DNA of 44,262 nucleotides, taken from positions 1 to 44,262 of the forward strand of contig JALZUC010000027.1 in NCBI GenBank assembly GCA_023301765.1, read 5' to 3'. Source of the stretch: Akkermansiaceae bacterium (lineage in GTDB: Bacteria; Verrucomicrobiota; Verrucomicrobiia; Verrucomicrobiales; Akkermansiaceae). The notes beneath the pieces were generated by a model. That model saw only the letters and a list, made by a program, of their open reading frames with translations, was not told the DNA's origin and did not search any database. How positions within the stretch are numbered: position 1 is the first letter of the stretch; each line of letters opens with the position of its first letter. The position numbers and the translations under genes were made by a program. Below are positions 3,129 through 29,121 of the stretch, piece by piece.

Positions 3129-4211
3129 ATGCCAGAAACACCTACTGATGTAGCCGCCGTGCCTAGCGATGCAATGAAGACCGAGAGCGGTTTAGCATTT
3201 AAAATCCTCCAAGCTGGAACTGGTGATGAAAAACCAAGTTCCGCTGATGCCGTGACAGTCCATTACTCTGGCTGGACAACGGATGGAAAGATGTTTGATA
3301 GTTCGGTAGAGCGTGGTGAGCCAACTAGTTTCCCGCTAGGTCAGGTGATCGCTGGATGGACGGAAGGTTTACAGCTGATGGTTATGGGAGAGAAGCGTCG
3401 CTTCTGGATTCCGGAGGATCTTGCTTACGGCCCAGTCGTGGCTGGCAGCGGTCGCCCAGGGGGTATGCTTTGTTTTGATGTAGAACTTATTGGCATTAAA
3501 GCAGCGCCAAAACCACCTGCGGATACCGAAAAAACCGATTCAGGAGTAGCTTACAAAATCATAGAGGAGGGTGCTGGTGAGAGACCTAAGGTCGATGATG
3601 TAGTTACTTTCCACTTTATCGCTAAAACAATGGACGGTGAAACTGTGCAAGACAGCCGTAAAGAGCAATCTCCTCCGAGTATGCAGCTGGCTAAGCTGCC
3701 GCCAGCCCTCAGTGAAATAATCAGTGACATGAAATCCGGTGAACAGCGTCAGGCATGGCTTCCTGAACCTCAAGCGCCCGGTGGCTACATTGATGCAGAG
3801 CTTGAGCTTGTTTTATTTAAAGCTGCACCTCCAGCGCCGGCAGTTCCTGAAGATGTAGCGGAGGTTCCAGCGGATGCTGAGAGGACTGCTAGCGGACTTG
3901 CTTTTAAAGTGATCAGCGAGGGTACTGGTAAAAAGAAGCCTAAGGAGTCTGATACTGTGAGAGTGCATTACTCTGGATGGACTACGGATGGAGAAATGTT
4001 TGATAGCTCAGTGACTCGTGGAGAGCCTACAGAGTTTCCACTTAACGGTGTTATTAAAGGATGGACCGAAGGGGTGCAATTGATGGTCACTGGTGAGAAG
4101 CGCCGCTTCTGGATTCCCGCTGAGCTTGCTTATGGACCAGCTGTGCCTGGTAGTGGGCGCCCTGGCGGCATGCTCGTCTTTGATATAGATTTCCTTGAAA
4201 TAGTATCATAG
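3129..4211 (+). CDS. Triple-domain FKBP-type peptidyl-prolyl isomerase
   Basis: A 360-residue protein made of three tandem FKBP domains, at about residues 18-123, 134-231 and 252-358. Domains 1 and 3 are nearly identical. Both have VHYSGWTTDG, MFDSSV, GWTEG, GEKRRFWIP, LAYGP and GSGRPGGML, so both keep the FKBP pocket residues (Tyr, Phe-Asp, Trp, Tyr). Domain 2 is shorter and has lost the YSGW, GWTEG and AYGP motifs, so it is probably not catalytic. Pro/Ala-rich linkers join the domains. No signal peptide is visible, so it is predicted cytoplasmic unless the start is misplaced. It is monocistronic with a strong terminator. Confidence 0.9.
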   Translation: MPETPTDVAAVPSDAMKTESGLAFKILQAGTGDEKPSSADAVTVHYSGWTTDGKMFDSSVERGEPTSFPLGQVIAGWTEGLQLMVMGEKRRFWIPEDLAYGPVVAGSGRPGGMLCFDVELIGIKAAPKPPADTEKTDSGVAYKIIEEGAGERPKVDDVVTFHFIAKTMDGETVQDSRKEQSPPSMQLAKLPPALSEIISDMKSGEQRQAWLPEPQAPGGYIDAELELVLFKAAPPAPAVPEDVAEVPADAERTASGLAFKVISEGTGKKKPKESDTVRVHYSGWTTDGEMFDSSVTRGEPTEFPLNGVIKGWTEGVQLMVTGEKRRFWIPAELAYGPAVPGSGRPGGMLVFDIDFLEIVS

Positions 4212-22372: not shown

Positions 22373-22533
22373 GTGAGTAGAGATATTACTATTTACTATA
22401 GCGTTACACAGCTTTTAAGTTGTGCCATAAATTTTTATGCTAGTGTTGGAAGAGTTATGTATTCTAAGATAGTAAGGTGCGCGGAAGGTGGGTATATATC
22501 CCATGCACATTGCTGACATATATAACCAAACTC

Positions 22534-24894
22534 ATGCCCCGACGTAAAACTAATTCACTTTCAGCGAGGGGGGCAAAGCGCCCTCCGCGTAAGAAGGCGC
22601 GCCGGAAGACTTCCATCAAGAAAGTGGGGAGGAGTGGTCAGTCATCAGCTGCGAAGAAAAAGAAAAAACGGCCAGCGAAGAGGGGTGTTATATTTACACT
22701 ATTGTTCTGGCCATTTATGCTTATCGGCAGACTTACATTGGAGTGGCATGCTTTGATTAAATGGCCGGCACGGGTGTTTGGAGGGCTGGCAGTTATAGGG
22801 GCCTGCTTAATGACTCTGATGGCGGCAGTATATTACGCACGCGCTAGCCAGTATGATCTGGATCAGGTTGATCAGATGCCTGCGCGGACACTGGTCTATG
22901 CTCGTGATGGGAAGGTGGAACTTGGGCGCCTCCATGGTGATAACCGTTACATTGTGGGGTTCGGTGAAGTTTCACCTTATTTTCGAGATGCTTTGGTGGC
23001 ACGTGAGGATGCGCGTTTTTATGACCATGGAGCTATAGATATACGTTCGCTCCTACGTGCAATACAGAGAAATTTTAGTAAGGGGAAAAAAGAGGGTGCT
23101 TCTACGCTTACTATGCAGCTGGCTAGAAATACTTTTCCATTGGGTGGGAAAACTATTGATCGGAAGTTATTAGAGATTGCTGTGGCCGTTCGTATGGAGG
23201 AGCGCTTCACCAAGGATGAAATTCTGGAGCATTATATGAACCGAATTTTTTGGGGGCACTCGATCCGTGGTATTGAGGCTGCATCACGCACTTATTTTGA
23301 AAAACCAGCGTTTAGACTACGCCTCTCTGAGGCTGCTATGCTGGCGGGCATAATCCGTGGGCCCAATGCTTTTTCCCCTTTTAAAAATATTGAGGCGGCG
23401 AAAAAGGAGCGTGATGTGACCCTTAGCCGGATGGTTTTATATGGATTTATCACTCAGGCAGATGCTGATGCTGCAAAAAATGAAAAACCTAAAATCCGGC
23501 CGAAGAGCAGAAGGGTGGTGCAGGATACATATGTGATGGATTGCGTTCGCCGTGAGTTAGACCGCATTCTTGAGGAGCGTAACATAGAGGAAGGTGGCCT
23601 GACGGTTATTACGACCATAGACCATGCTATTCAAAAAGCCGCCGAGCTTTCTATGGATAGAAATTTAATTAAGGTAGAAAAAACACCAGGTTACCGTCAT
23701 CAGACGCGGGCCCAATGGCGCGCCTTACCACAGGGAAGTAAGGGGGAGCCTGCTTATGTGCAGGGGGCGTGTGTGGTCGTTGAGAATAGAAGCGGGGCTG
23801 TGATTGCCGTGGTGGGGGGGCGTGATGCAGAGGAGTCTAAATATAACCGTGCTATTCAAGCGAAGCGTCAGATAGGCTCAGTGTTTAAACCCTTTGTCTA
23901 TCTCGCTGCATTTAATCGAGGTATGTTACCTGAGACGTGGGTGCGTGATAGTGCTATCCGAAGTGGTGAGATTGATGGTGTTTCTGGGGCTTGGAATTTA
24001 TCGAATTCGGATGGTAAGTTTGGTGATTTTATAACTGCTGAAAACGCCCTTGTTAGATCACGGAATACGTCATCTGTGAGGGTGGGAAACTATGCAGGAC
24101 TCAATAATGTGAATGATACGGCCATTGGTGTAGGTTTTATTGGTGGTATCCCCCTTACGCCGTCATCATACTTGGGATCATGGGAGGCTACCCCATGGCA
24201 GGTGGCAAGTGCCTATACGGTATTTCCTAATAATGGAGACTGGTATAGACCTTATATGATTCAGGAAATTCGGAACGCGGATGGTGAACGCCTCTATCCT
24301 GGTAAGGGTGACTCTGGAAAACTCGTGGTTAGCGCGGCTGAGCCGGGTGCTACATGGTCAGTCTCTAACGTGCTTCAAAAAGTGGTCGACCGTGGCACTG
24401 GACGTAAGGTGCGGGCACTAGGATACACCGCACCCTGTGGAGGTAAGACTGGGACTACAGATGACTATAAAGACGCGTGGTTTGCAGGTTACACAGGCAC
24501 TCTTACCTGTGCTGTGTGGGTGGGGATGGATCAGCCAAAGACGATTGTGAACCGTGGCTATGGCTCTACTCTGGCAGCGCCTATCTGGACGGATGTTATG
24601 AAAGTGGCTACTCGGTTAGGGTATGCTACTCCCAAGTTTCAGCCATTACGTCTGCAGACCGCGAGGCTTTGCCGTTGGTCAGGGAAGCGTGCTACCAGTG
24701 GCTGTGAGGCAAATGGGTCTGCTTATAATGCGAGAGTCCCAGCGGACATTATGCCTGCGAGTAATGACTACTGTCCTATACATCCACTGCGTGCTGTGGT
24801 GCCAAAAGCGGGCGCAGGCCGGCAACGTACACCACCACGTGCTCTGCCCGTGGAGGAAGATAGACGCCCGCCGCGTGCTATAGAGGTGAACTAA
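22534..24894 (+). CDS. Bifunctional class A penicillin-binding protein
   Basis: A 786-residue peptidoglycan synthase. A very basic cytoplasmic tail (residues 1-55) is followed by a membrane helix at about 79-102. The GT51 glycosyltransferase domain has the catalytic Glu158 in VAREDARFYDH, plus GASTLTMQLARN, RKLLEIAVAVRME and KDEILEHYMNRIFWG. The transpeptidase domain is complete: GSVFKPF (Ser449, Lys452), SRN (509-511) and CGGKTGTTDDYKDAWFAG (KTG 638-640). I prefer ATG 22534 over an upstream GTG at 22477. A Pro/Arg-rich tail ends the protein. It is 28 bp upstream of a second PBP-like gene. Confidence 0.95.
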   Translation: MPRRKTNSLSARGAKRPPRKKARRKTSIKKVGRSGQSSAAKKKKKRPAKRGVIFTLLFWPFMLIGRLTLEWHALIKWPARVFGGLAVIGACLMTLMAAVYYARASQYDLDQVDQMPARTLVYARDGKVELGRLHGDNRYIVGFGEVSPYFRDALVAREDARFYDHGAIDIRSLLRAIQRNFSKGKKEGASTLTMQLARNTFPLGGKTIDRKLLEIAVAVRMEERFTKDEILEHYMNRIFWGHSIRGIEAASRTYFEKPAFRLRLSEAAMLAGIIRGPNAFSPFKNIEAAKKERDVTLSRMVLYGFITQADADAAKNEKPKIRPKSRRVVQDTYVMDCVRRELDRILEERNIEEGGLTVITTIDHAIQKAAELSMDRNLIKVEKTPGYRHQTRAQWRALPQGSKGEPAYVQGACVVVENRSGAVIAVVGGRDAEESKYNRAIQAKRQIGSVFKPFVYLAAFNRGMLPETWVRDSAIRSGEIDGVSGAWNLSNSDGKFGDFITAENALVRSRNTSSVRVGNYAGLNNVNDTAIGVGFIGGIPLTPSSYLGSWEATPWQVASAYTVFPNNGDWYRPYMIQEIRNADGERLYPGKGDSGKLVVSAAEPGATWSVSNVLQKVVDRGTGRKVRALGYTAPCGGKTGTTDDYKDAWFAGYTGTLTCAVWVGMDQPKTIVNRGYGSTLAAPIWTDVMKVATRLGYATPKFQPLRLQTARLCRWSGKRATSGCEANGSAYNARVPADIMPASNDYCPIHPLRAVVPKAGAGRQRTPPRALPVEEDRRPPRAIEVN

Positions 24895-24922: not shown

Positions 24923-26569
24923 ATGAGCTGGAAGCCCGCTAATAGACCTTCTCGTTTCCCTAAATGGGTGCCCATGAGACTGCGCGGCCCGATAGGCTGG
25001 GTAATTAAATGTGGTTTTGTAGCAACATTACTGCTGCTTGCAGTAGCGATGTTTTATTTCTACAAAGCACAGAAATTCGATATGGCAGGTGTGGCGAAAA
25101 TGCCTGAGCGTTCTTTGATTATAGATCGGAATGGTAGTGCCTACGGCTATGTTCATGGAGAGCGCCGCCGCCTTATTACCCGTGATGAGATCCCTGAGGC
25201 TATGGTGGAGGCATTACTTGCTCGTGAAGATTTACGGTTTTATAATCATAGTGGTGTGGATATAAGAGGGCTTGCTCGTGCTACATTACGTAATTTAAAA
25301 GACCGCTCATTTACACAGGGTGCATCTACCTTAACCATGCAGCTAGCGAGAAATAGCTACAATATGAGAGCGAAGTCTCTGCACCGTAAGTTTCTAGAGA
25401 TTGCGCTAACTTTGCGGGTGGAAAGTCATTATTCGAAAGATGAAATTCTGACAAGTTATCTGAACCGTATTTACTTTGGTGCTGGTTGTCATGGCGTGGA
25501 GGAGGCGGCGCAGACATACTTTGCTCGTTCAGTCTCTGACCTAAATGCTGGGGAGTGCGCCCTCTTAGTGGGGATTATCCGTGGGCCACATATATTTTCT
25601 CCATTCAGAAATATTGAGGGGGCGAAGGTACAGCGTGATGAAGTACTGGAGAGGATGGTTACCTGCGGATTTCTAACAGAGGATGAAAAAGATAATGCGG
25701 TGGATACCCCTATCCGACTGCTTCAAGAGAAGGAGCGTAATCAAAACAGCTCTTATGCACGTGAGCGTATAAGGAGGCAGCTGCAAATTATCTTAGATGG
25801 AAATGATATCCGTAGCGGAGGTCTGAAGATTTACACAACAATAGATCAAGAGATGCAGCATGCTACAGAGGAGCTGATGAAGAAGGAGATTACTGGAGTT
25901 AAAGTTACCGAAGGGCTGCAGTCAGCAGTTATAAAAGTTGACCCTAAGACTGGTGGTATAATGGTGCTTTGTGGAGGGCGTGATTATGAGGAGTCTGTAT
26001 TTAATCGTGTCTACTTAGCTAAGCGAGACCTGGGCCCTATGTATACTCCATTCCTGGAGGCGGTAGCTCTTGAGAGGAGTAAGGTGGTGGTTGTTGGGAA
26101 ACCCGTTCAGACAGGCAGGCAGTTAGGTGTGGAGGAGTCTATCCGGCTTAGTAAGAGATTAGGGTTTTCTGGGCCGTTCCAGAAAACGGAAGATCTCTAC
26201 CGCGGATCTGTAGCTGCCAGTCCCATAGAGGTGGCACGGGCAGCATCTGTAATTGCTAATGAGGGGAGGGGAATTGATCTACATTTAATTACTAAAATTA
26301 CGGGTCAAAATGGGGAGGTTATTTATGAGTTATCCCCAGCATCACGCCAACCCTTGTCGAGAGGGGCTGCCAGTGAGGCGCTGAAAAACTTACAATCGAA
26401 TAAAGGGGAACTGGTGACATGTACATCCTCATGCCGTGATGGTTGGGCAATGGTAGTGGCAGAGAATGAAGTCACAGTTATTTGGCTCGGTTACGATAAG
26501 CCAAAGAAAATAGGGTCAAGCTCTGTCATAAAGCGTTACCTTAAAAACCTATTAGAGATGCTAGATTAA
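24923..26569 (+). CDS. Class A PBP-like glycosyltransferase with degenerate transpeptidase domain
   Basis: A 548-residue PBP1-like protein with a membrane helix at 26-46 and an intact GT51 domain: Glu102 in LAREDLRFYNH, GASTLTMQLARN, and KDEILTSYLNRIYFG with its second Glu. The transpeptidase half is reduced to about 220 residues and has lost its active site. GSVFKPF of the neighbour aligns with GPMYTPF here, so Ser is Pro372 and Lys is Thr375. The SxN segment is deleted, and the KTG segment is replaced by TCTSSCRDGWAM. It should polymerise glycan but not cross-link it. It is co-transcribed with the complete PBP and probably arose by duplication. Confidence 0.9.
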   Translation: MSWKPANRPSRFPKWVPMRLRGPIGWVIKCGFVATLLLLAVAMFYFYKAQKFDMAGVAKMPERSLIIDRNGSAYGYVHGERRRLITRDEIPEAMVEALLAREDLRFYNHSGVDIRGLARATLRNLKDRSFTQGASTLTMQLARNSYNMRAKSLHRKFLEIALTLRVESHYSKDEILTSYLNRIYFGAGCHGVEEAAQTYFARSVSDLNAGECALLVGIIRGPHIFSPFRNIEGAKVQRDEVLERMVTCGFLTEDEKDNAVDTPIRLLQEKERNQNSSYARERIRRQLQIILDGNDIRSGGLKIYTTIDQEMQHATEELMKKEITGVKVTEGLQSAVIKVDPKTGGIMVLCGGRDYEESVFNRVYLAKRDLGPMYTPFLEAVALERSKVVVVGKPVQTGRQLGVEESIRLSKRLGFSGPFQKTEDLYRGSVAASPIEVARAASVIANEGRGIDLHLITKITGQNGEVIYELSPASRQPLSRGAASEALKNLQSNKGELVTCTSSCRDGWAMVVAENEVTVIWLGYDKPKKIGSSSVIKRYLKNLLEMLD

Positions 26570-27489: not shown

Positions 27490-29121
27490 ATGATTATGAA
27501 TAAGTATTTACAAGCTGCAGTAGTCTCAGATGCCCTATCTCTAGGGCCGCACTGGATTTATAACCAAACTAAAATTGCACGCCTGTACCCTGATGGGATA
27601 AAGAACTTTGCTGACCCTGGTAGTGCCTACCACCCGGGTAAATCTGCAGGGGATCTGACCCATTACGGTCAACAATCGATGATCTTAGCAGGCTCTCTTG
27701 AGACGCGAGGAGGCTTTAGTGTGGATGGCTGGCGTGAAGACTGGCTGGAGGGAATGAAGGACTTCAGCGGCTATATGGATGGTGCTTCTAAGGAGACTAT
27801 TGCTAGCGGTGGTATTTCAGCTTCTTCATCTAATGATCTTGCCGGGTCATCCAGACTGGCGCCAGTCCTTGACCTTGGTGTTTCTCTGGATGAGAAGATC
27901 CTAGCGGCGCGTGCACAAACTGCACTGACTCATGGTGATAGTGACGTTATTGATTCAGCTGAATTTATTGTACGTGCGGTAATCGCCATTGAAGGCGGGG
28001 CTGATATATCGGGTGCTTTTGATCAGGCTGCTGAGGAGGGTAATTACAACTCCCTTAATGCTAAAGACTTCCTGGCTATTGCTCGCTCTCAGGGGGATGA
28101 TTTTCTAGCGGTGGGACAGTCTCTGGGGCTTACCTGCCATTTTCCTGAGGCTTTTCCGCTAGCGCTCTATTTAGCACTCAGACCAGGTGCTAATTATGCC
28201 TCTGCAATTAGTGAAAATGGTCTAGCTGGTGGTGATACATCGGCTAGGGCTATGGTTCTGGCTGTGTTATTTGCAGCTCGCGATGGTGAAGTTAGTAAAG
28301 AGTATACTAGTGGCCTAAAAACTAGTGGGGGTAGTCCGGTATTACCGGTGCCTAATACTTATAAAGCTGGATCAAATCCAGTAACCCTTAACTATGATGG
28401 TAAAGTGCTAGCAGGTGTGCTGGAAATGCCTGATGGGGAGGTGGTTGCTACTGCGATTTTTGCTCACTGCTTTACTTGCGGTAAGGACTTTCTCCCTGGT
28501 GCTAGAGTGTCGCGTGGGTTAGCTAGCCGTGGTATAGCTACACTGCGAATTGATTTTACTGGATTAGGCCAGTCTAAAGGGTCATTTGAAGATTCATCTT
28601 TTATTACTAATGTGGATGAACTTGTGTATGCTAGTGAGTGGCTTTCTAGCACTCTTTGCCCACCCACACTACTTGTAGGTCATTCATTGGGTGGTGCAGC
28701 TGTGCTAGCTGCTGCGGCTAAAATTGATACGATCAAGGCGGTTAGCACTATTGGTGCTCCAGCTGATCCTGGACACGTCACCCACATGTTTGAGGGTGAT
28801 ATTGAAAAAATCAAATTGGACGGTAAGGCAAAAGTTAGTCTAGCAGGGAGACCTTTTGTGATTGGTGAGCGGTTTATCTCAGATATTGAAAATTATGATC
28901 AAAAGGTAGTTCTGGGAGGTTTAAAGGGTATCCATGTTCTTGTGATGCACGCACCAGATGATGATGTAGTGGGCATCAAGAATGCAGGAGATATTTATAC
29001 TGCGCTAAATCACCCGAAATCCTTTATTTCGCTGGCAGGTGCAGACCACCTACTCACTAAGCCCGAAGATGCTGAATATGTGGCTGAACTCATACGGGTG
29101 TGGGCTAAGCGGGTATTGTAA
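27490..29121 (+). CDS. ADP-ribosylglycohydrolase-like / alpha-beta hydrolase fusion
   Basis: A 543-residue two-domain protein. Residues 1-270 match the ADP-ribosylglycohydrolase fold: AAVVSDALSLGPHWIYN replaces the usual GDALG start, and LAGGDTSARAMVLAVLFAA is the C-terminal metal motif with the second Asp of DxD replaced by Ser, as in J1-crystallin-like members. Residues 300-543 form an alpha/beta hydrolase with HCFTCGKDF, RIDFTGLGQSKG, nucleophile Ser399 in VGHSLGG, Asp in MHAPDDDVV and His in GADHLL. This second domain is closest to the hydrolase half of hydrolase-OsmC fusions. Possible role: removing ADP-ribose and acyl or ester groups from related adducts, which is inference. A TetR-like gene is divergent. 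Confidence 0.82.
   Translation: MIMNKYLQAAVVSDALSLGPHWIYNQTKIARLYPDGIKNFADPGSAYHPGKSAGDLTHYGQQSMILAGSLETRGGFSVDGWREDWLEGMKDFSGYMDGASKETIASGGISASSSNDLAGSSRLAPVLDLGVSLDEKILAARAQTALTHGDSDVIDSAEFIVRAVIAIEGGADISGAFDQAAEEGNYNSLNAKDFLAIARSQGDDFLAVGQSLGLTCHFPEAFPLALYLALRPGANYASAISENGLAGGDTSARAMVLAVLFAARDGEVSKEYTSGLKTSGGSPVLPVPNTYKAGSNPVTLNYDGKVLAGVLEMPDGEVVATAIFAHCFTCGKDFLPGARVSRGLASRGIATLRIDFTGLGQSKGSFEDSSFITNVDELVYASEWLSSTLCPPTLLVGHSLGGAAVLAAAAKIDTIKAVSTIGAPADPGHVTHMFEGDIEKIKLDGKAKVSLAGRPFVIGERFISDIENYDQKVVLGGLKGIHVLVMHAPDDDVVGIKNAGDIYTALNHPKSFISLAGADHLLTKPEDAEYVAELIRVWAKRVL

Follow-up and report, generated by a model that had tools for sequence, protein, structure and literature searches.

OsmC-esterases, which carry the annotation label 'bifunctional alpha/beta hydrolase/OsmC family protein', are the closest described relatives of one half of the protein considered here, and according to the main report they hydrolyze 4-nitrophenyl esters and conserve two N-terminal cysteines, and DTT inhibited every one that was tested (PMC5113044). 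The same paper terms the role of the OsmC domain enigmatic. The domain in full-length EstRM, the one tested, showed no peroxidase activity, and removal of OsmC led to higher esterase activity on short-chain substrates (PMC5113044). The other half belongs by fold to the (ADP-ribosyl)hydrolases (ARH), of which ARH1 and ARH3 have a dinuclear metal site with the motif E...[S/T]DDT...D[S/T]D[S/T], as given in two papers (PMC6309922; PMC7050489), and ARH3 is reported in one of these to degrade O-acetyl-ADP-ribose (PMC7050489).

A gene that joins modules of these two kinds lies in the window, by which is meant the whole stretch of 44,262 nucleotides that was analyzed, in contig 27 of an Akkermansiaceae genome (G000; 2.46 Mb in 68 contigs). 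The sequence-only reading of this DNA had placed an ADP-ribosylglycohydrolase (ADPRH)-like domain with a GGDTSARAM motif and a serine hydrolase domain with GHSLGG on one chain, and this was borne out. In a single frame of 543 codons (Table 1), Pfam detects ADP_ribosyl_GH (PF03747) at residues 9-267 (E 1.5e-24, 87.6 bits vs a cut-off of 26.2) and Abhydrolase_6 at residues 323-425 (E 7.6e-8, above cut-off), and the two motifs are found at residues 247-255 and 397-402. The proposed likeness of the C-terminal half to the hydrolase half of hydrolase-OsmC proteins also stands, since residues ~301-542 match two OsmC-named proteins among PDB sequences, 9wo1 (E 3.8e-73) and the esterase domain of 5cml (E 2.7e-66). 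The N-terminal half of the window protein as a single query found nothing significant among PDB sequences; a profile of 28 N-half relatives matches MJ1187, Thermus thermophilus ADPRH, ARH3 and DraG (E 9e-14 to 1e-4). Structure prediction, which the same reading had recommended, recovers an ARH fold in the first half and a second half closest to 5cml. The AlphaFold2 model of the whole fusion (pLDDT 78.9, pTM 0.54; the linker is floppy over residues 276-286) has 5cml as its top Foldseek match (E 4e-18; 41% identity in the structural match), while the model of residues 1-277 (pLDDT 69.4, pTM 0.78), which was built on four sequences and has pLDDT below 50 at residues 18-34 and 36-47, around H21, matches ARH3 (7aks) and MJ1187 (1t5j) with a Z of 20.6, the best non-ARH-like row reaching 3.7. 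The fusion protein is probably cytoplasmic.

Table 1. Features of the fusion gene and its divergent neighbor, with positions in the window.
Feature	Position	Strand	Basis
Divergent neighbor, TetR-related protein with eroded helix-turn-helix	26795..27364	-	homologue with TetR_N
Fusion gene, 543 aa	27490..29121	+	single uninterrupted frame, ATG at 27490, stop ending 29121
N-terminal J1-type ADP-ribosylglycohydrolase-fold domain, residues 1-275	27490..28314	+	PF03747 and AlphaFold2 model
His21, facing the presumed Glu-flap glutamate of ARH in the MJ1187 profile alignment	27550..27552	+	H in 59/61, Q in 1, gap in 1
THYGQQ (57-62), where ARH has [T/S]DDT	27658..27675	+	Q61 is D/E in the 60 other rows
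GGDTSAR (247-253), where ARH has GGDTDT; first Asp alone kept	28228..28248	+	profile alignment
Linker, residues 276-296	28315..28377	+	residues 276-286 with pLDDT <50 in full-length model
C-terminal serine esterase domain, OsmC-esterase (EstO/EstRM) type, residues 297-543	28378..29118	+	PDB/Foldseek matches, HMM architecture
CFTC (C327, C330)	28468..28479	+	invariant in 111/111 hydrolase halves
Ser399 of GHSLGG, nucleophile	28684..28686	+	triad with D491 (28960-28962) and H520 (29047-29049)

The same domain pair occupies one frame in 23 full-length genes, including that of the window, and in two more that are cut by contig ends (G605, G621). All 25 genomes belong to the Verrucomicrobiota, the phylum on which the searches were centered, and the full-length genes come from two of its classes. 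The full-length genes come from a first set (G000, G004, G018, G027, G030, G079, G242, G287), an order draw (G426, G434, G460, G503, G511, G553, G570, G576, G587, G589, G591) and a family draw (G595, G600, G616, G619), and the order draw (288 genomes) yielded 16 genomes with a fusion, the family draw (145 genomes) 17, the two cut copies included. In a scan of named genomes (best 80 of 584), an Akkermansiaceae MAG (L061) and a Verrucomicrobiales MAG (L062) carry the fusion; by sequence these appear to be the same organisms as G616 and G576, respectively. Seven aligned fusions are 40-59% identical to the window protein. In G391 the fusion is broken in three pieces, and in G597 (L205:4885-6611) the frame changes between the ADPRH-fold gene and the esterase and an in-frame stop separates the two, the locus being either broken or unfused. 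An apparent triple fusion in G287, a frame of 735-760 aa with an extra N-terminal domain, was discarded because its start had been set too far upstream, a homologous Met following. A scan of viral sequences with the N-terminal half gave two matches, both weak and partial (37-39% across some 70 residues), and 724 plasmid records matched, none covering 80% of the query. The sequence-only reading knew of no characterized protein with this pairing, and no description of an ADPRH-fold/esterase fusion was recognized in the open-licence literature as judged from titles and abstract starts, but the pairing itself occurs in other genomes too; the expectation under which relatives would always encode the two domains separately fails on these 23 genes from two classes. 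The fusion is confirmed as a real, inherited, lineage-specific two-domain protein.

The esterase half has the properties by which OsmC-esterases (EstO of Pseudoalteromonas arctica; EstRM of Rhodothermus marinus, 5cml) are recognized, namely homology in the esterase domain, the Ser-Asp-His triad and the two N-terminal cysteines (C327, C330) described for these enzymes (PMC5113044). H398, S399, H487 and D491 are identical, as are both cysteines, in all 111 hydrolase halves aligned, and H520 is found in 110, with one gap. Unlike the OsmC-esterases, the fusion stops after its esterase domain, the C-terminal OsmC domain being absent, and has an ADPRH-fold domain in front of the esterase instead. 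An HMM census of architectures in 141 sequences, the window included and some loci overlapping one another, counted 69 hydrolase-OsmC frames, one hydrolase-OsmC-hydrolase, 18 fusions, one OsmC alone, 22 hydrolases alone (plus two with the hydrolase in two stretches) and 27 N-terminal halves alone (plus three in two stretches). The 69 hydrolase-OsmC frames identify the esterase as a module otherwise usually joined to OsmC.

The N-terminal half shares its whole fold with ARH3, DraG and MJ1187 (1t5j) and departs from all three at the metal site, where the fusion replaces the Glu flap, the two aspartates of TDDT and the second Asp and Thr of DTDT. In the HMM alignment to MJ1187, T-D-D-T corresponds to T57-H58-Y59-G60 and GGD-T-D to G247-G248-D249-T250-S251, and the residue opposite H21 is presumably the flap Glu of MJ1187, an assignment based on the ARH motifs. 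Two of the seven metal-site positions of ARH3 are kept, Thr57 and Asp249. The fold and the profile of the ARH family are hence present and the dinuclear motif is missing (H21; T57, H58, Y59, G60; D249, T250, S251, A252). In the alignment of 61 N-half rows, G54, G60, D97, C216, G247, G248, D249 and R253 occur in every row, D14, W22, Y24 and H48 in 60 with one gap each, and H58 in 60 with Q in the other, while residue 61 is D in 58 rows, E in two and Q (codon CAA, 27670-27672) in the window protein alone. Judged by sequence, the N-terminal half appears to have lost most of the ARH metal ligands (H21, H58, Y59, S251) and to have retained an invariant polar set of its own, and such strict conservation suggests a different site rather than decay. 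Canonical ADP-ribosyl hydrolase chemistry would therefore not be the best reading for the fusion. By its GGDxxAR-type C-terminal motif, as the sequence-only reading had pointed out, this half would resemble the J1 crystallin-like ADPRH proteins, from which the fusion differs in having an esterase partner. We know of no substrate for J1-type domains and of no activity for a J1-type ADPRH domain that lacks the usual metal motif. The window's genome encodes a second ADPRH-fold protein (L003, contig 38), a 350-codon frame with the motif GGDSCHRGA, which also departs from GGDTDT.

A gene for a pyridine-nucleotide-disulfide oxidoreductase adjoins the fusion in several relatives, and was seen first beside three fusions and then in L061 and L062. 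The reductase reaches none of the NCBIfam cut-offs shown; models for dihydrolipoyl dehydrogenase, mycothione reductase and glutathione reductase rank high in its list, and its top match in the PDB is 8qcj, a mycothione reductase (E 1.3e-66). It has in common with these three kinds of enzyme the domains of the family and the motifs CxxxxC and HPxxE, which are found in 16 of 16 rows, and the 15 rows in which the strand motif could be found all have an Arg after the second Rossmann strand, which suggests a preference for NADPH. In the 145 genomes of the family draw, 16 have the reductase, 39 the N-terminal half and 15 both (G004, G021, G027, G030, G287, G477, G511, G576, G589, G595, G597, G600, G605, G616, G619), with G610 having the reductase without the N-terminal half. 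Twelve of the 17 fusion genomes have the reductase vs 4 of the 128 that lack a fusion (Fisher p 9e-11), and it is present in 15 of the 39 genomes that carry an N-half gene vs 1 of the remaining 106 (Fisher p 3e-9); neither value is corrected for relatedness.

Where fusion and reductase occur together, the two genes are adjacent in 7 of 12 genomes and apart in five, and the order is reductase then fusion in G027, G576 and G616 and fusion then reductase in G004, G030, G595 and G605. In G477 the reductase gene shares a 4-nt overlap with an N-only gene, which ties the reductase at least to the N-terminal half; by eye, no other constant neighbor of stand-alone N genes was seen. In G597 the split pair is followed by one small ORF and then the reductase. 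A gene for an MsrB/MsrA fusion overlaps the reductase by 8 nt in G021 and G610 (L208:2221-4597, L213:3047-5396), and in G589 a malic-enzyme gene, near the NADP-dependent models but below their cut-offs, follows and overlaps it. The same type of malic enzyme follows the fusion in G576 (L062), where aldehyde dehydrogenase and acetolactate-synthase-like genes lie upstream of the reductase, and a malic enzyme recognized by eye follows the fusion in G616 (L061). The reductase is missing from 5 of the 17 fusion genomes of the family draw, including that of the window, whose best match is 31% identical and not a close copy, and was not seen in the flanks read of the fusions outside the main clade described below (G242, G079, G426, G460, G503). 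Together with Q61, this absence calls for caution, in that the window's copy may be a less representative member of the group.

The properties of the OsmC-esterases, combined with the reductase, MsrBA and malic-enzyme neighbors, favor a thiol or redox role. Our tentative reading, to which we give somewhat less than even weight, is that the fusion is a redox- or thiol-linked bifunctional hydrolase that acts in thiol/aldehyde or oxidative-damage metabolism and does not reverse protein ADP-ribosylation. The substrate of the esterase half would be a small acyl ester or thioester, and the ADPRH-fold half would act on the other part of that metabolite or of a related one, using a non-canonical active site putatively built on H21, H58, D/E61, D249 and R253, while the NADPH-fed reductase would keep a thiol cofactor, or the CxxC of the fusion, in the reduced state. 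As OsmC-esterases are inhibited by DTT, the reductase might instead switch the esterase off rather than sustain its activity. In the window's genome, which lacks the reductase and has a changed residue 61, the first half of this scheme may be altered. Of the role suggested by the sequence-only reading, 'detoxification' is in keeping with the redox gene context (disulfide reductase, MsrBA, malic enzyme), whereas the loss of five of the seven ARH3 metal-site positions makes 'signal reversal', in which ADP-ribose would be taken off Arg or Ser, less likely.

A bolder and rather unlikely version would have the J1-type half exchange the all-carboxylate Mg2+ center for a two-His-one-carboxylate site (H21, H58, D249), perhaps with Zn or Fe or metal-free, and would have it form, with the CxxC esterase and the NADPH disulfide reductase, an undescribed pathway in Verrucomicrobiota that dismantles thiol-linked or glycosidic adducts. 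Through the fusion, two orphan domains gain a common context, and a lineage in which an ADPRH-fold domain replaces OsmC and is linked to a disulfide reductase makes the roles of both domains testable. The label 'ADP-ribosylglycohydrolase' on such proteins may mislead as to their chemistry.

Several alternatives to a thiol-linked bifunctional hydrolase were weighed. The N-terminal half could have no catalytic activity and control the esterase by binding a ligand or by allostery, much as OsmC may do. This would be in line with the loss of most canonical metal ligands and of D61 in the window protein, and with the finding for OsmC-esterases that OsmC showed no peroxidase activity and that its removal raises short-chain activity (PMC5113044). 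Such a role seems possible but on the unlikely side, since no aligned residue in the 61 rows departs from D14, H48, D97, C216, D249 or R253, beyond what a binding shell usually needs, and the N-terminal half persists alone, in G477 with the reductase overlapping it. Improbable in our view is the original proposal of a working ADP-ribosyl hydrolase and an esterase that together reverse ADP-ribosylation. Its best form concerns O-acetyl-ADP-ribose, which the esterase would deacetylate before the ARH half cleaves it; the fold match to ARH3, DraG and MJ1187 (Z 18-21) agrees with this, and the reported degradation of O-acetyl-ADP-ribose by ARH3 would neatly explain the esterase partner (PMC7050489). 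The idea needs a metal site, however, and this counts against it, as the dinuclear motif is unmet at all three segments of the N-half sequence (H21; T57-H58-Y59-G60; D249-T250-S251-A252).

Two unrelated activities might also have come together by chance and persisted through drift in a single lineage, and here the history of the two halves is relevant. In an IQ-TREE phylogeny built from 61 rows of esterase halves, one fork of 21 rows (support 95) comprises the main fusion group and two fragments, and when the tree was rebuilt without L030 the group was one side of a branch (support 91). G242, G079 and a group of G426, G460 and G503 fall outside it. A single clade of all fusion esterase halves was rejected (p-AU 0.001), whereas a clade that also takes in the esterase-only L010 (G048) was not (p-AU 0.28), in a test that left out L030_C as a long branch and used 24 of 74 OsmC-bearing rows. 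Hence a single origin with losses and multiple origins are both compatible with the data. Esterase loss does occur, as N-only genes are nested among fusions in the N-half tree and one of them (L164) is followed, with no change of frame, by a 17-residue match to the esterase. Retention by drift would accommodate this remnant, the several relatives with the N-terminal half only and the broken copies in G597 and G391, but we consider it improbable because the main clade of 21 rows covers many genera and conserves both active-site sets. An assembly or frameshift artefact, which a 68-contig assembly might bring to mind, is already refuted by the identical in-frame architecture of 23 full-length genes in separate genomes.

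The gene that diverges from the fusion had been read as a TetR-like regulator. Its product has no Pfam match at E 10, to the TetR_N helix-turn-helix or any other family, and a homologue in the same bacterial family (L221) has a clear TetR_N domain (E 1.3e-12), from which we conclude that the product is TetR-related with an eroded helix-turn-helix. The kinship therefore holds, but its own DNA-binding motif is eroded and the linkage to the fusion is not conserved: in G600 the homologue is on a different contig from the fusion, and the gene was rejected as a fusion partner. Other regulators lie beside fusions in G027 (Rrf2) and G079 (TetR). TetR relatives in which the helix-turn-helix is eroded or missing recur in this bacterial family (L221, L222, L225, L227), and in G613 and G625 such a relative is directly beside an intact-looking TetR.

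Elsewhere in the window, two penicillin-binding-protein genes are in tandem (22477-24894 and 24923-26569). The transpeptidase match of the second is partial (residues 426-492) and just under cut-off, and by eye the SxxK-like segment GSVFK of the first reads GPMYT in the second, which may be a transglycosylase only. In the product of 3129-4211, an FKBP-like peptidyl-prolyl isomerase motif is apparently repeated within one protein, as seen by eye.
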